Assembly: GCA_903929755.1 (NCBI GenBank)
Contig: CAIYVZ010000077.1
Location: forward strand, 1-34,602
Origin: an uncultured Acidobacteriia bacterium
GTDB lineage: Bacteria; Acidobacteriota; Terriglobia; Bryobacterales; Bryobacteraceae
Length of the DNA stretch: 34,602 nucleotides
Direction: 5' to 3'
The position numbers were made by a program, and so were the translations under genes. Positions 29,896 through 34,602 of this stretch are shown in pieces (position 1 is the first letter of the stretch; every line of letters begins with the position of its first letter). Under the pieces are notes generated by a model. That model was not told the DNA's origin, searched no databases, and was given only the letters and a program-made list of their open reading frames with translations.

Positions 29896-30306
29896 CCGCA
29901 CTGCAAAGCTTCGTTGCAAGTTCATTCCCTGTGGCAAGGCCTTGGGATCGGACTGGTGCTCTCGGCCGCACTTGCCTCCCGCGCCCGTTACGCGGCGGCT
30001 TGCGCGAGCGTGCTGGCGGTTGTAGCGGCGTTCGCTGCGACGCTGGCCAGGCCTGACGCAGATGGAGATCGACGGAGCTGTTGCGGGGGCGCTTGCCCTG
30101 CCTGCACGACCTCTGGACACTGCGGGGACACGGCGTCTGCCATGTGTCGGCCATGTGGAGTTCGCGACTGACGGAACTGGGGACGATGGTCGGGATCACG
30201 GGCGCTGTGGCTCGCCGAGGTGATGCTCTTTTATCACCCGGCGGTCTGGTGGATCTCGTCCGTCATCCGTACGGAACGGGAAAACTGCTGCGACGAACTG
30301 GAGTCG
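29892..30306 (+). pseudogene. Frameshifted and deleted BlaR1/M56 sensor protease
   Basis: The ATG opens MTALQSFVASSF and soon shifts frame. From 29914 the next frame reads LQVHSLWQGLGIGLVLSAAL and ARYAAACASVLAVVAAFAATLA, the first membrane helices of M56/BlaR1 sensors. After a stretch with no sensible frame (about 30060-30195), ALWLAEVMLFYHPAVWWISS followed by VIRTERENCCDE appears, the conserved segment just after the HExxH zinc motif of BlaR1. The HExxH itself is missing, so at least one deletion removed the active site. It is not functional. Confidence 0.75.
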
Positions 30307-30456
30307 CACCCGGTTGCCGCGGGTAAGCCCGCCTTCGACGCGTGGCGCTATAAGTACATCGCGGGTGTGGGAACGAACGTGATTGTGGAGTTCGTGGACA
30401 CGACCGGGTCAGGCGACTACCGGATGTCGATGGACCCGAACCCTTCGAAAAAATAG
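30307..30456 (+). pseudogene. Tail fragment resembling acidobacterial GWxTD-domain proteins
   Basis: Directly in frame after the BlaR1 piece, the sequence changes to KPAFDAWRYKYIAGVGTNVI and VEFVDTTGSGDYRMSMDP before a TAG. This resembles the C-terminal W-x-Y-x-x-I-x-G-[IV]-G-x-N-V-x-[IV]-E-F-V-D-P-T-x-[ST]-G-E-Y segment found in GWxTD-domain proteins of this phylum, proteins often encoded near blaI/blaR1 pairs. Only about 45 residues remain. The junction is probably a deletion that fused two neighbouring genes. The family call rests on recall of the motif only. Confidence 0.5.
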
Positions 30457-30459
30457 TTA

Positions 30460-30500
30460 TTGACAGGCCCCGGCCTAAACATGCATTCTGAATGCATATT
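30460..30500 (+). promoter_or_regulatory. Promoter with NsrR-like operator for the globin-reductase-nsrR operon
   Basis: TTGACA at 30460-30465 is a perfect -35 box. The -10 would fall at about 30483-30489. Over that same place lies an 11-1-11 palindrome, 30478-30500, with the core ATGCATT-CTG-AATGCAT and A/T-rich ends. It matches the NsrR consensus (AAGATGCATTT-N-AAATGCATCTT) at 19 of 22 positions, so bound regulator should block polymerase. The operator abuts the globin ATG at 30501 and no Shine-Dalgarno is visible. The transcript may therefore be leaderless or nearly so. Confidence 0.75.
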
Positions 30501-30878
30501 ATGTCTTCCGAGACCACACCTCTTTTTGAACAACTGGGCGGCCAGGCAGCCGTCGAAGCAGCAGTAGATAACTTCTACCGCAAAGTCCTTGTGGACGAAC
30601 GTGTCGCACACTTCTTTGATGATGTGGACATGGAACGCCAGAGGGGCAAGCAGAAGGCCTTTCTGACGATGGCCTTTGGCGGCCCGCATAACTACACTGG
30701 CAAAGATATGCGGACCGGCCATGCGCGACTGGTGGCGATGGGCCTGAACGATTCCCACTTTGACGCCATTGTGGAACTGCTGGGTGCAACGCTGAAGGAT
30801 ATGGGCGTGGCCGATAACCTGATTGGCCAGGTGGCCGCGATTGCGGAATCGACGCGCGCGGACGTTCTGGGGCGCTAA
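30501..30878 (+). CDS. Group I truncated haemoglobin (TrHbN type)
   Basis: This 125-residue protein is a 2-on-2 globin. It has LFEQLGGQAAVEAAVDNFYR with the B9/B10 pair Phe25-Tyr26, FLTMAFGGPHNYTGKDM, and the proximal haem ligand His74 in RTGHARL, followed by HFDAIVELLGATLKDMGV. TrHbN proteins bind O2 and turn nitric oxide into nitrate when supplied with electrons. An ATG three codons upstream lies inside the NsrR-like palindrome, so I use 30501. The stop overlaps the reductase start by one base (TAATG), which suggests the two products are made in fixed ratio. The NO-detoxification role is inferred from the operator, the reductase and nsrR. Confidence 0.88.
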   Translation: MSSETTPLFEQLGGQAAVEAAVDNFYRKVLVDERVAHFFDDVDMERQRGKQKAFLTMAFGGPHNYTGKDMRTGHARLVAMGLNDSHFDAIVELLGATLKDMGVADNLIGQVAAIAESTRADVLGR

Positions 30879-31840
30879 TGTCATCCGTTGCTTATGCAGG
30901 CCGTTCGCTGGAACTGTCCCTGGGGGAGAGCGTCCTCGACGGCCTGCTGCGCAGCGGGATTCCGGTGGCTCACGCGTGTAAGGCCGGGAGTTGCGGCTCC
31001 TGCATGCTGCGCGCGGTGGGCGGTTGTGTGCCCCCCCGGGCACAGGTCGGCCTGAAGGATTCCTGGAAGGCACAAGGCTATTTCCTCTCGTGCGTGTGCG
31101 TTCCCGAGGCTGATATGGAAGTGAGTGAAGCGGGGGCGGATACGCGGGTGACCGCGCGAATTATGGCTGTTGACCACCTGAGCCACGACGTGCTGCGGGT
31201 GCGGCTGCAGCCGGAGAGAAACTTCGATTATCGCGCCGGCCAATACCTGACGCTCATCCGCGACACAGGCCTGGCGCGCAGCTATTCCATTGCCAGCCTG
31301 CCGCATGAGAGCGAGTTGGAACTACATGTCCGACTTATTCCCGGAGGCCGTATGAGTACCTGGCTCTGTGAGCCCGCTAGTGTTGGAGCGCAGGTTCAGT
31401 TGCAGGGGCCAACGGGAGAATGTTTTTACGTGCCGGACCGCGAGGACCAACCGCTGCTGCTGGCGGGCACGGGGACGGGCCTGGCGCCTCTTTGGGGCAT
31501 CATCCAGGATGCCCTTCGGCGGAACCACCGCGGGCCGATCCATTTGTTCCATGGCGCGCTTCGCATGGAGGGTTTATACCTCAGGGAAGCGCTGCGAGCC
31601 CTGGCTGCACGGTATGCCAATTTCACCTATACGGCGGCGGTGCTGGAAGGCACGGAGGAACCGGGTATTTTCATCGCGCCGATTGACGCCGTGATCGCCT
31701 CCAGCCACCCCAAACTGAACGGCTGGCGGGGGTTTATCTGCGGCGACCCAACCCTGGTGCGATCTTTAAAGAGGAAGCTGTTTTTGGCGGGCATTGCGAT
31801 GGGAGATATTTACTCGGACGCGTTCCTGCCATCGGCTTAA
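30878..31840 (+). CDS. 2Fe-2S/FAD/NAD(P) reductase, likely electron donor to the globin
   Basis: This 320-residue soluble protein has three domains. A plant-type ferredoxin comes first (Cys34, Cys39, Cys42 in ACKAGSCGSC, and Cys72). Next is an FAD domain with RSYSIAS (134-140), then an NAD(P) domain with GTGTGLAP (197-204) and a C-terminal CGDP. This is the layout of oxygenase reductases such as phenol hydroxylase or methane monooxygenase component C. No oxygenase is nearby; the gene starts on the last base of the globin gene. It therefore most simply replaces the reductase half of flavohaemoglobin, reducing the globin haem iron after each NO turnover. Flavohaemoglobin itself lacks the 2Fe-2S domain, so this is a different solution. 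Confidence 0.88.
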   Translation: MSSVAYAGRSLELSLGESVLDGLLRSGIPVAHACKAGSCGSCMLRAVGGCVPPRAQVGLKDSWKAQGYFLSCVCVPEADMEVSEAGADTRVTARIMAVDHLSHDVLRVRLQPERNFDYRAGQYLTLIRDTGLARSYSIASLPHESELELHVRLIPGGRMSTWLCEPASVGAQVQLQGPTGECFYVPDREDQPLLLAGTGTGLAPLWGIIQDALRRNHRGPIHLFHGALRMEGLYLREALRALAARYANFTYTAAVLEGTEEPGIFIAPIDAVIASSHPKLNGWRGFICGDPTLVRSLKRKLFLAGIAMGDIYSDAFLPSA

Positions 31841-31859
31841 ATTCCCCGGGACCAGACCG

Positions 31860-32321
31860 ATGCAACTCAGCCTTCACGCCGATTACGCCCTGCGCGTTCT
31901 TCTTTACGCAGGGTCACATCCGGCGGCAACCGTAACGACACGACAGATCAGCGAAGCCTATGGCATCTCGCGCAACCATCTGGTACGGGTGGTGCATACG
32001 CTGAGCGAACAAGGCTACGTAAAGGTGACGCCGGGGCGCTCCGGTGGTCTGAGTCTGGCGAAAGATCCCGGCCAAATCCGGCTCGGGCAGGTGGTCCGGT
32101 ATGCGGAACCAAATCTTCGTCTGGTGGAATGCTTTGACCGGAAGACCAATACGTGTCCCATCATTGACGCTTGCGGCCTGAAAGCGCCGTTACGGAAGGC
32201 CCTGGACGCATTTCTGAATGAGCTGGATCAGTACACGCTTGGCGACTTGCTGAGCGGCGCGCGGGGCGAAGCGATGGCAAGCGCTCTGGTACAACTTAGT
32301 CACACCACGCCTGTACACTAA
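31860..32321 (+). CDS. nsrR: Rrf2-family NO-sensing repressor (NsrR type)
   Basis: This 153-residue protein starts MQLSLHADYALRVLLYAGSH, the classic Rrf2 opening. A winged helix-turn-helix follows (TTRQISEAYGISRNHLVRVV, GRSGGLSLA). The cluster cysteines are Cys91, Cys99 and Cys105 in ECFDRKTNTCPIIDACGLK. Three Cys in this region bind an Fe-S cluster that NO destroys in NsrR, releasing DNA; IscR has a different spacing. The predicted target is the palindrome at 30478-30500, so the regulator would repress its own operon until NO appears. It starts 19 bases after the reductase stop, with GGGA upstream, and ends 4 bases before the M28 peptidase start. Confidence 0.88.
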   Translation: MQLSLHADYALRVLLYAGSHPAATVTTRQISEAYGISRNHLVRVVHTLSEQGYVKVTPGRSGGLSLAKDPGQIRLGQVVRYAEPNLRLVECFDRKTNTCPIIDACGLKAPLRKALDAFLNELDQYTLGDLLSGARGEAMASALVQLSHTTPVH

Positions 32322-32325
32322 CTTC

Positions 32326-33903
32326 ATGCGCCGAACGCTGACGTTTTTCCTGCTGTTTGTTTTCGTATTGGGGGCTGCCGAACCCGCCTGGGTGGCGGCG
32401 GGCAAAGCCTGGTGGGCCCATATTGAGTATCTGGCAGATGACAAGCTGGAAGGTCGAAATGTCGGGTCAAAAGGTTATGACGTGGCGGCGAACTACGTGG
32501 TTAGTCAGTTTGAAAAGGCGGGGCTCGCGCCTGGCGTGGGCTCGTCATACTCGCAGCCGGTGGAATTCGCGAAACTGACGCTCAATGAACAGGCGTCTTC
32601 GCTGGCTCTGATTTACGATAAGTCGGCCACGCCGGTGAAGCTGGGGGATGAGGCTCTGCTCGGGTCGCCGCATGACACGACAGACACCGAAGCGCCGCTG
32701 GTTTTTGCGGGTTACGGTTTGGCTATTCCGGACGCTGGTTACAACGACCTGAAAGACCCGGCGCTCAAGGGCGCAATCGCGGTATACCTGATGGGCGGCC
32801 CGGCGCAGATTGATGGGAATTTGCGGTCACATTCTTCGTCGGCCGACGAGCGGGGGAAAGCGATGAAGGCTGCGGGTGCGATCGGCACTATTGCCATCCC
32901 GAACCCGAAGTCGATGGATATTCCGTGGGCCCGCCAGAGCGCCAACCGGCTGCAGGCCCGAATGGGTCTGGCGGATCCGGCCCTGGCGACACAAGCCGGA
33001 CAGTTCTCGGCGACTTGGAATCCTTCGAAAACGGAGGCTTTGTTTGCAGGGTCCGGCCATACGATGGAAGAGATTTTCGCTGCCGCCAATGCCAACCAGC
33101 CTTTGCCGCACTTCGTTATGAAGACCAGCATTCGGGCACACGTAGTGACGTCGCGTGAGAAGGTGGACTCGCGTAATCTGGTGGCTGTGCGCCCGGGATC
33201 TGATGCGCGGCTGAAGAACGAGTTCGTGGTGATCTCGGCGCACCTGGATCATCTGGGCGTGGGGGCTCCGGTGAATGGCGACGCGATATTCAACGGGGCG
33301 ATGGACGATGCGTCCGGGATTGCCTCGCTGATTGAGATCGCACGGGCGCTAAAGGCAGCCAAGGTAAAGACGAAGCGGTCCATTGTCTTCGCAGCAGTGA
33401 CGGGTGAAGAGAAGGGCTTGCAGGGCTCGCGCTACTACAGTGAACGCCCCACCGTGAAGGGTAAGATTGTGGCCGATATCAACATGGACATGTTCCTGCC
33501 GCTGTTCCCGCTGAGGTATCTGGAAATTCAGGGTCTGAATGAGTCGACGCTGGGCGATGATATCCGCGCGGTTGCAGGCGCGGTGAAGGTTGAGATACAG
33601 GCCGATAAAGATCCCAACGCCAACCGTTTTATCCGCAGTGACCAGTACAGTTTTATCAAGAAGGGTGTACCAGCCCTGGCGTTTAAGTTCGGCTGGGTTC
33701 CAGGTTCCAACGAAGAGAAGATTTATAAGGCGTGGTATACGAATCGCTATCACGCTGTTTCGGACGACCTGAGTCAGCCTGTGGATAAAGAGGCCGCTGC
33801 ACAGTTCAACGCGATTCTGGTGAGCTTGTTGCGGCGGGTGGCCGATGCGGAAAAAGCGCCTTCGTGGAAGGCGGACAGCTTCTTTCGCCGGTTCGCTCAT
33901 TAG
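32326..33903 (+). CDS. Secreted M28-family zinc aminopeptidase
   Basis: This 525-residue protein has a signal peptide (about 1-18). A PA-type insert lies between about residues 95 and 265 (PLVFAGYGL...LKGAIAVYL). The M28 di-zinc catalytic domain follows, with ligands and catalytic residues His306 (SAHLDHLG), Asp327/328 (NGAMDDASG), Glu361/362 (TGEEKGLQGS), Asp388 (INMDMF) and His476 (NRYHAVSDD). It should remove N-terminal residues from peptides outside the cytoplasm. It begins 4 bases after nsrR and could be co-transcribed, though its link to nitric oxide stress is unclear. The stop overlaps that of the convergent metallo-beta-lactamase remnant. Confidence 0.9.
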   Translation: MRRTLTFFLLFVFVLGAAEPAWVAAGKAWWAHIEYLADDKLEGRNVGSKGYDVAANYVVSQFEKAGLAPGVGSSYSQPVEFAKLTLNEQASSLALIYDKSATPVKLGDEALLGSPHDTTDTEAPLVFAGYGLAIPDAGYNDLKDPALKGAIAVYLMGGPAQIDGNLRSHSSSADERGKAMKAAGAIGTIAIPNPKSMDIPWARQSANRLQARMGLADPALATQAGQFSATWNPSKTEALFAGSGHTMEEIFAAANANQPLPHFVMKTSIRAHVVTSREKVDSRNLVAVRPGSDARLKNEFVVISAHLDHLGVGAPVNGDAIFNGAMDDASGIASLIEIARALKAAKVKTKRSIVFAAVTGEEKGLQGSRYYSERPTVKGKIVADINMDMFLPLFPLRYLEIQGLNESTLGDDIRAVAGAVKVEIQADKDPNANRFIRSDQYSFIKKGVPALAFKFGWVPGSNEEKIYKAWYTNRYHAVSDDLSQPVDKEAAAQFNAILVSLLRRVADAEKAPSWKADSFFRRFAH

Positions 33904-34464
33904 CGAGCGGGGCGGGCGGGCCGGACGACGATGGTGAAGTCCGGCAGGGCTGTGGTTTGCGGCGTGGCGCCCATGGCGTTACAGGCCTCGCTTAGCTCCA
34001 GAACATGGGCTCTGGTTAAGGCCAGGGCATGTTCATCGGGCTGATAAACGGTGCCGGTCGGGTAGTCCACATAGGGCGTCGCCGCCTGCTCGATATGCGT
34101 CCCCAGCACGTGCGCAATCTGGTGAGTCTTCACAAACGCGGCCAACTTTGCGGCACTGGCTGTGAAGGAGGGCATATCGGCAATCGGAACGTACAGACGC
34201 CCGGGATAGAGCGAGTCGCCGGTGAGCAGACTTCCCGTCTTGCGGTCGTACAGCGCGATGCTGGCGACGTTGTGGCCGGGGATCGTCAGAACATCAAGAA
34301 CCCTGCCACCAAGATCGAGCTCCGGGCCAATTTCAGCGATTGCGGCGGGAGTTGCGGCGATGAACTTCACGTTCGGGAGTGCCTGGAATTGCTTGTCACC
34401 CGCCGTGTGATCGCCATGCCCATGGGAATGGATGACAATCAGAGGAACCGGGGCGCGTTTCTTC
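33900..34464 (-). pseudogene. Metallo-beta-lactamase-fold hydrolase, 5' end lost to IS66 insertion
   Basis: Reading from the junction at 34464, the frame gives KKRAPVPLIVIHSHGHGDHT, the zinc motif H-x-H-x-D-H. GGRVLDVLTIPGHNVASIAL then supplies the next His, LLTGDSLYPGRLY the bridging Asp, and VLGTHIEQ the last His. The catalytic core and C-terminus are intact to TAA at 33900-33902. The first strands and any signal peptide are missing. They should lie upstream of the HxHxDH motif, where the sequence now turns into an IS66 end with an in-frame TGA. A GTG at 34370 is open but would omit the zinc motif, so a functional product is unlikely. Confidence 0.8.
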
Positions 34465-34602
34465 GTAACAGTTCAGGTAGGGCGGGAATTCTTGAGTAGG
34501 GACGTGGGCGGTTGTGCCAGGCGGTGTGAGCGGATGGCGCTGTTGAGGTAGTCGAGAGGGTGACGGTTCTGCATGCGGCAGGTTTGCGTGACGGTCAGCA
34601 GG
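34465..34602 (-). mobile_element. IS66-family element, right end with transposase C-terminus
   Basis: On the minus strand 34601-34473 encodes LLTVTQTCRMQNRHPLDYLN then SAIRSHRLAQPPTSLL and TGA, the C-terminal domain of an IS66 TnpC transposase. The terminus read from outside is GTAACAGTTCAGGTAGG at 34465-34481; IS66 elements characteristically begin with GTAA. The element therefore ends at 34465. Its usual 8-base target duplication would be 34457-34464 (GTTTCTTC), but the other copy lies beyond the window. Confidence 0.8.

Follow-up and report, generated by a model that had tools for sequence, protein, structure and literature searches.

A truncated globin, a 2Fe-2S reductase and an NsrR-like regulator form a probable nitric oxide-detoxification operon in Acidobacteriota

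Which protein keeps the heme of a bacterial truncated haemoglobin reduced? It has been proposed that any haemoglobin could likely scavenge nitric oxide (NO) given re-reduction of its heme, and the same paper calls the identification of cognate reductases most helpful (Smagghe et al. 2008, PMC2323109). The question is raised by contig CAIYVZ010000077.1 of an uncultured acidobacterial soil bacterium (genome of 6.86 Mb in 212 contigs), the whole 34.6 kb of which (34,602 nt) constitutes the window of this study. Between positions 30460 and 32321, a globin gene, a reductase gene and a regulator gene follow one another on the forward strand behind an NsrR-type operator. We consider it likely that they form a self-contained NO-detoxification operon, in which the reductase would re-reduce the globin for aerobic removal of NO, as flavohaemoglobin (Hmp) does.

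The first gene (30501..30878) encodes a group-1 truncated haemoglobin (TrHbN) of 125 amino acids (aa) when read from the ATG at 30501, or of 128 aa from a second in-frame ATG at 30492 (open frame 30492-30878). It matches Pfam Bac_globin (68.8 bits), and the cyanoglobins 2hz2 and 1s69 are its closest solved relatives in a structure-sequence search. Numbered from ATG 30501, Tyr26, Lys50 and His74 occupy positions B10, E10 and F8; the Bac_globin domain, TyrB10, the proximal HisF8 and the group-1 members nearest to it together place the protein in group 1. The second gene (30878..31840, 320 aa) encodes a ferredoxin(2Fe-2S)-FAD-NAD(P)H reductase with the Pfam domains Fer2 (residues 9-76), FAD_binding_6 and NAD_binding_1. 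Cys34, Cys39, Cys42 and Cys72 are the predicted ligands of its 2Fe-2S cluster, each kept in 34 or 35 of 35 aligned rows, and the only further matches to the reductase in this genome cover it in part (28% and 36% identity). The third gene (31860..32321, 153 aa) encodes a regulator of the Rrf2 family (Pfam Rrf2, 115.6 bits). A preliminary description of the window had named this trio, with a group-1 globin, a ferredoxin-FAD-NAD(P) reductase and an NsrR-type regulator with its operator, and these identifications are supported here.

To what signal would such an operon respond? The regulator shares 45% identity with Escherichia coli NsrR over 132 columns, its helix-turn-helix closely resembles that of the E. 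coli protein, and the NsrR entry 5n07 is its nearest solved chain. It combines the Rrf2 fold with three cluster cysteines (Cys91, Cys99 and Cys105) and Asp8, as expected of an NsrR regulator; 25 of 26 aligned regulators have all four residues, the remaining one being gapped. A 23-bp palindrome, AACATGCATTCTGAATGCATATT, with 11-nt arms about 1 nt that are 91% complementary, lies at 30478..30500 and fits the published NsrR consensus ATGyAT-N5-ATrCAT at 12/12 core positions. On a 20-position score built on an E. coli-type NsrR consensus, it reaches 18/20, where E. coli hmp scores 16 and ytfE 19. When the upstream region was dinucleotide-shuffled 200 times, 0 shuffles scored as high as the window site. 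It is the sole match with at most 3 mismatches in the 6.86-Mb genome, where a reversed control pattern gave 0 matches, on a search pattern that was partly modelled on the window site and would let weaker sites escape.

The position of the palindrome is also informative. TTGACA, a candidate -35 element read directly at 30460..30465 (forward strand), stands 12 nt ahead of it, and the presumed -10 element, CATTCT at 30484..30489 (forward strand, 18 nt from the -35), lies within it, thus a bound repressor would presumably cover both the -10 and the start site. In 14 other loci picked for comparison, TTGAC[AGT] and operator are spaced much as in the window, and some relatives have CATTAT, CATCAT or TACTAT as candidate -10 element at 17-nt spacing. 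Since the palindrome ends right before ATG 30501, translation of the globin probably starts there, on a nearly leaderless mRNA. The operator ends at or a few bases from the start codon in many close relatives too, and stands 18-50 nt upstream of the globin in L017, L018, L020, L022, L028, L029, L075 and L078; near-leaderless and leadered forms of the operon both seem to exist.

In the mechanism that we infer, the Rrf2 regulator would be the NO sensor. Without NO, its intact iron-sulfur cluster would hold it on the palindrome and transcription would be blocked, and damage of the cluster by NO would release the repressor and allow globin, reductase and regulator to be made from one mRNA. The oxygenated globin would then act as an NO dioxygenase, turning NO and O2 into nitrate and leaving its heme ferric. 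The reductase would probably re-supply the globin with electrons, passed from NAD(P)H via FAD and the 2Fe-2S domain directly to the heme, and the co-produced regulator would reset the switch.

Does the arrangement hold beyond the window? Among 150 genomes of the order, a truncated globin of some kind was found in 66 (E <= 0.001) and a close one (at least 63% identity to that of the window) in 35, the window's genome included. The reductase is adjacent in 31 of these 35 genomes, together with the regulator in 27 of the 31, so that the linkage in acidobacterial relatives, which the preliminary description had itself put forward as a check, holds. Four more distant globins of the order (L064-L067) showed neither reductase nor regulator by tblastn within 9-10 kb of context. 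A phylum search of 396 genomes added four genomes with the pair outside the order (G200, G212, G347 and G493), two of which, G200 and G493, have the regulator; in G321, with a globin of 58% identity, this search found no adjacent pair. The pair is also carried by plasmids of at least three Methylocystis records, two of which were read, among the best 30 of 38 records with plasmid globins (H1, H2 and H4 read), and no regulator accompanies it within the two Methylocystis stretches read. The Methylocystis globins are nested within the acidobacterial group of the globin tree, which suggests that the pair has been transferred between phyla. Pairwise distances of globin and reductase correlate with r = 0.75 over 35 loci (L015, L062 and L063 left out), ancestry being left in. 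A reductase scan of genome contigs yielded two loci, of which L032 lies on a contig that, by its equal length and identities, is apparently that of G101; as a duplicate of L008, it is not counted among the 38 linked loci. Within the window, globin and reductase genes overlap by one base as TAATG, read directly, and the preliminary description had seen in this a means of fixing their ratio. That idea is not supported, and the overlap is present in only some relatives and replaced elsewhere by gaps from a few to about 265 nt.

The operator, in turn, accompanies the regulator. Globin loci were scanned over 150 nt upstream, less at contig ends (105 bases in L012, 82 in L031 and 38 in L015), and over the first 45 nt of the gene; a locus counted as positive at a score of at least 13/20 reached by at most 6/200 shuffles, a threshold set after the scores had been seen. 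Of 29 operons whose regulator gene is adjacent, 26 have an operator, versus 1 of 8 that have no such gene (Fisher p 8.5e-5, which overstates the evidence because the loci are related). The scan found it at 0 of 10 unlinked globins. L033, whose contig ends before the regulator, was left out of this table. By eye, a diverged TGTTG...CAACA palindrome was seen in the operator-negative L020 and L063, and in the likewise negative L059 (G107) the 5' end of the globin is lost beside an integrase-like frame, with reductase and regulator matches behind. G022 has two operators ahead of the pair.

What the operon does may be judged from the company of its operator. Hmp exceeds its curated cut-off in 3 of the 150 genomes (G013, G031 and G084). 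All three hmp genes have an operator-like site 20-22 nt upstream (scores 16, 16 and 15 of 20) and an Rrf2 gene within the same 4.2-kb locus, divergent in G013 and G031 and downstream in G084, where the regulator is 40% identical to that of the window. Since these three hmp genes resemble the operon in operator and in the proximity of an Rrf2 gene, and Hmp over the cut-off is absent from the 31 pair genomes, the operon most likely does Hmp's job. An independent pattern search of the 150 genomes gave 38 distinct sites in 34 genomes against 5 control matches. Fourteen of them stand before the pair and two before hmp, those of G013 and G031, that of G084 being missed. A site of this type also precedes hcp in G128 (NF003658, 614.8 bits), so that the single NsrR-type site of the window's genome is not the general case. 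Apart from these and the further loci named below, fifteen of the 38 sites lack a comparable association to date, nine of these 15 having been read. Among the indirect arguments for a response of the operon to NO, the regulon-like company of its operator is the strongest.

Operator-type sites were seen beside other genes as well. In L138 (G084), such a site lies where a gene for a group III truncated globin begins (PDB 2ig3, E 3.4e-23), and in L147 (G097) where a group III truncated-globin-like gene with a weaker match begins (2ig3, E 0.0033). In L148 (G075), the site lies between an Rrf2 gene and a gene for a 365-aa multicopper oxidase, whose match to nitrite reductase is weak and below cut-off; by eye, the next gene seems to encode a cytochrome-like protein. 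In L152, L153 and L154 (G041, G093 and G051), it precedes a CxxCH protein of about 420-440 aa and then an Rrf2 gene; neither Pfam nor NCBIfam gave a match for the proteins of L152 and L154, nor did the PDB for that of L152. Near-perfect operator-like palindromes stand beside apparent AAA ATPase genes (by eye) in L134 (G065) and L149 (G066), G065 having two of them 4.8 kb apart, and these are perhaps something other than NsrR sites. Matches L109-L113 and further matches to the Hmp model are open frames of 588-626 aa that cover the reductase half only (positions about 146-398), without the globin half.

Several observations weigh against NO detoxification by this operon, all support for which is drawn from sequence. 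The presumed -10 is weak (3/6 to TATAAT), and a strict promoter scan of 30300-34602 called 0 promoters, the candidate -35 and -10 included. The preliminary description had placed an NsrR-like palindrome on this -10 region; the palindrome and its consensus fit stand, and the -10 itself is less secure. The regulator scores 120.6 bits with the NCBIfam NsrR model (NF008240), under the cut-off of 182, and we call it NsrR-like for that reason; the hmp-linked regulator of G031 is under the cut-off likewise (123.1 bits). The RirA model gives a close 114.0 bits and even exceeds NsrR for the regulators of two distant relatives (137 vs 124 and 132 vs 121). Scores so near to or above those of NsrR might indicate a RirA-like iron-responsive repressor and an operon that answers iron or cluster status instead of NO. 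However, the operator fits the published NsrR core and has counterparts at hmp and hcp of the order, and the conserved Asp8 and cysteines, the nearest solved chain and the helix-turn-helix all point to NsrR, and we regard iron control as very improbable.

Other points on the same side concern the integrity of the unit. Close globins stand without an adjacent reductase in four genomes, G105, G094 and G058 of one genus and G131, and eight linked pairs have no adjacent regulator. Damaged copies occur: the globin of G065 has an in-frame TAG, the G100 regulator and the G148 reductase are each split in two, globin and reductase of G074 are in pieces, and the globin of G107 has no 5' end; several relatives are fragmented metagenome-assembled genomes with apparent frame breaks. 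In addition, with Hmp as scarce as 3 in 150, its absence from pair genomes is not significant, and we dropped a pair-Hmp anticorrelation as a candidate finding since three cases, even with no overlap, are too few. The genomes that keep the globin alone, and the fact that the nearest solved and named relatives of the reductase (the P450 reductase 5ogx, and PRK05713, BenC and MmoC, all under their cut-offs) include reductases of oxygenases or P450s, could also mean that the electrons of the reductase go to an oxygenase encoded elsewhere, or to some other acceptor, and that the globin gene is a mere neighbour. But the three-gene unit contains no oxygenase gene, and the pair persists where the flanking genes of the window are absent and on Methylocystis plasmids; we give this explanation hardly any credence.

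Is the globin itself suited to NO dioxygenation? Lysine occupies E10 in 38/38 reductase-linked globins (31 of the order, L033, four of the phylum and two of Methylocystis), which suggests a hexacoordinate heme. Among the 16 unlinked truncated globins in the tree, lysine is found in three, and His, Met, Arg or Gln takes its place in the others; lysine also appears, in gapped alignments, in the distant unlinked globins L093, L097, L098 and L102 outside the tree. The linked globins and seven unlinked ones form one supported group of 43 rows. The tree was built without L062 and L063 and without the unlinked L035-L039, L041, L084, L086-L094 and L096-L102, which are too distant; L042-L045 repeat rows of the tree. 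We did not retain the lysine as an ancestry-independent correlate of linkage, because the linked globins all fall in one group and 3/16 unlinked ones have lysine too; it may go back to a single ancestral event.

With such a ligand and the same NO control, the globin and reductase might instead reduce NO, nitrite or hydroxylamine at low oxygen, or only buffer NO. The invariant lysine is compatible with this, the pair of G212 lies with nitrate reductase and NarK-like transporters, and the Bradyrhizobium globin Bjgb is described as mattering in anaerobic, not aerobic, growth on nitrate (PMC4724949). However, the operon shares its regulatory position with Hmp, mainly a dioxygenase, and the truncated globin THB1, with a distal lysine, is reported to dioxygenate NO in vitro (PMC4304232); the nitrate-gene neighbourhood is described here for G212. 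On balance, we find low-oxygen reduction or mere buffering unlikely and continue to favour aerobic NO removal. Electron transfer is described as being facilitated by heme ligation at E10 (PMC11904497). A stronger version of the aerobic proposal may be imagined, a distinct lineage of NO dioxygenases with two obligate components. In it, a truncated globin ligated by lysine(E10) would be inherited together with a 2Fe-2S reductase dedicated to it, and the lysine would belong to the electron-transfer design. The two genes would form an exchangeable module, able to occupy the promoter slot of Hmp and carried by plasmids from one phylum to another. We hold this to be possible, with doubt prevailing.

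Downstream of the regulator, an M28 peptidase gene (32326..33903, forward strand) begins 4 nt past the stop codon and may be co-transcribed in the window by read-through from the operon. As a fourth conserved gene it was rejected: a search of 38 loci, several of which have little flanking sequence, showed neither this gene nor the upstream gene of 855 aa next to the operon, and one partial M28 match lies about 4 kb from the operon in L074. The absence of these two flanking genes suggests that the trio, rather than its neighbourhood, is what is kept. No globin-reductase fusion was found; seven loci with long globin frames (L035-L041) have no match to this reductase. Five of them, L035, L036, L037, L038 and L039 (G128, G083, G097, G098 and G042), encode DUF4394-globin fusions of about 400 aa with a signal-like N-terminus (by eye), DUF4394 and a C-terminal truncated globin, a make-up that rests on Pfam for L035 and on inspection by eye plus BLAST for L036-L039. 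In L041 (G104), a truncated-globin-like domain shares one reading frame with apparent ankyrin repeats (by eye).

How, then, does the operon compare with known systems? Like Hmp, it joins a globin to an FAD/NAD reductase, and the three hmp genes over cut-off in the order resemble it in their operator and in having an Rrf2 gene close by; unlike Hmp (NF009805), it uses two open reading frames instead of one polypeptide, and its reductase has a 2Fe-2S (Fer2) domain that Hmp lacks. The preliminary description had called it a split flavohaemoglobin, which cannot be taken literally because both proteins come from other subfamilies: the globin is nearest to cyanoglobins, and the reductase, at 67.3 bits with the Hmp model (cut-off 432), is nearest to PRK05713 and oxygenase reductases. 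The cyanobacterial GlbN structures 2hz2 and 1s69 differ in turn by a histidine at the position aligned with the lysine of the window globin. Lysine at E10 is shared with Chlamydomonas THB1, K(E10), a truncated globin in which a distal lysine is reported to ligate the heme and which is described as dioxygenating NO in vitro (PMC4304232); that protein is algal, and the linked reductase operon is a feature of the system described here. In Bradyrhizobium japonicum, the unit narK-bjgb-flp-nasC likewise has separate globin and flavoprotein genes, and bjgb and flp mutants are both reported as NO-sensitive (PMC4724949). G212 (L122) recalls this unit: the neighbours of its pair are genes for an iron-sulfur protein, for two transporters of NarK type and for a nitrate reductase resembling NasC, all below curated cut-offs and the last incomplete in the stretch read. 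Bjgb, however, is described as a single-domain, Hmp-like globin under NasS-NasT control (PMC4724949), whereas the globin here is truncated.

The closest precedent is Legionella pneumophila, for which an NsrR-controlled glbN-ferredoxin reductase operon with Hmp-like NO oxidation was proposed (Rodionov et al. 2005, PMC1274295) and restated later (Gardner 2012, PMC3820574). There, a cyanoglobin-type globin and a hypothetical ferredoxin reductase share one operon, as do the adjacent, co-directional genes of the window behind their NsrR-type site, and glbN-lpg2536 is reported as the sole NsrR target found in that species (PMC1274295). By description, to which the likeness is confined, the Legionella operon has two genes, and the regulator is the third gene here. 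The novelty implied by the preliminary description is reduced by this prediction and by the genetic support for a globin-flavoprotein pair in Bradyrhizobium. We found no description of the operon for Acidobacteriota in a literature judged by titles and abstract openings, mostly outside subscription journals. To the earlier work, the present analysis adds a different phylum, a regulator gene that is part of the operon, the distribution of the unit, a regulatory position like that of hmp and the lysine lead. The pair, which occurs in 31 genomes of one order, four others of the phylum and plasmids of a second phylum, offers a ready candidate for a globin with its reductase, and its operator resembles the hmp operator of sister genomes; a prediction made in 2005 for one species, Legionella (PMC1274295), is thereby extended to Acidobacteriota.

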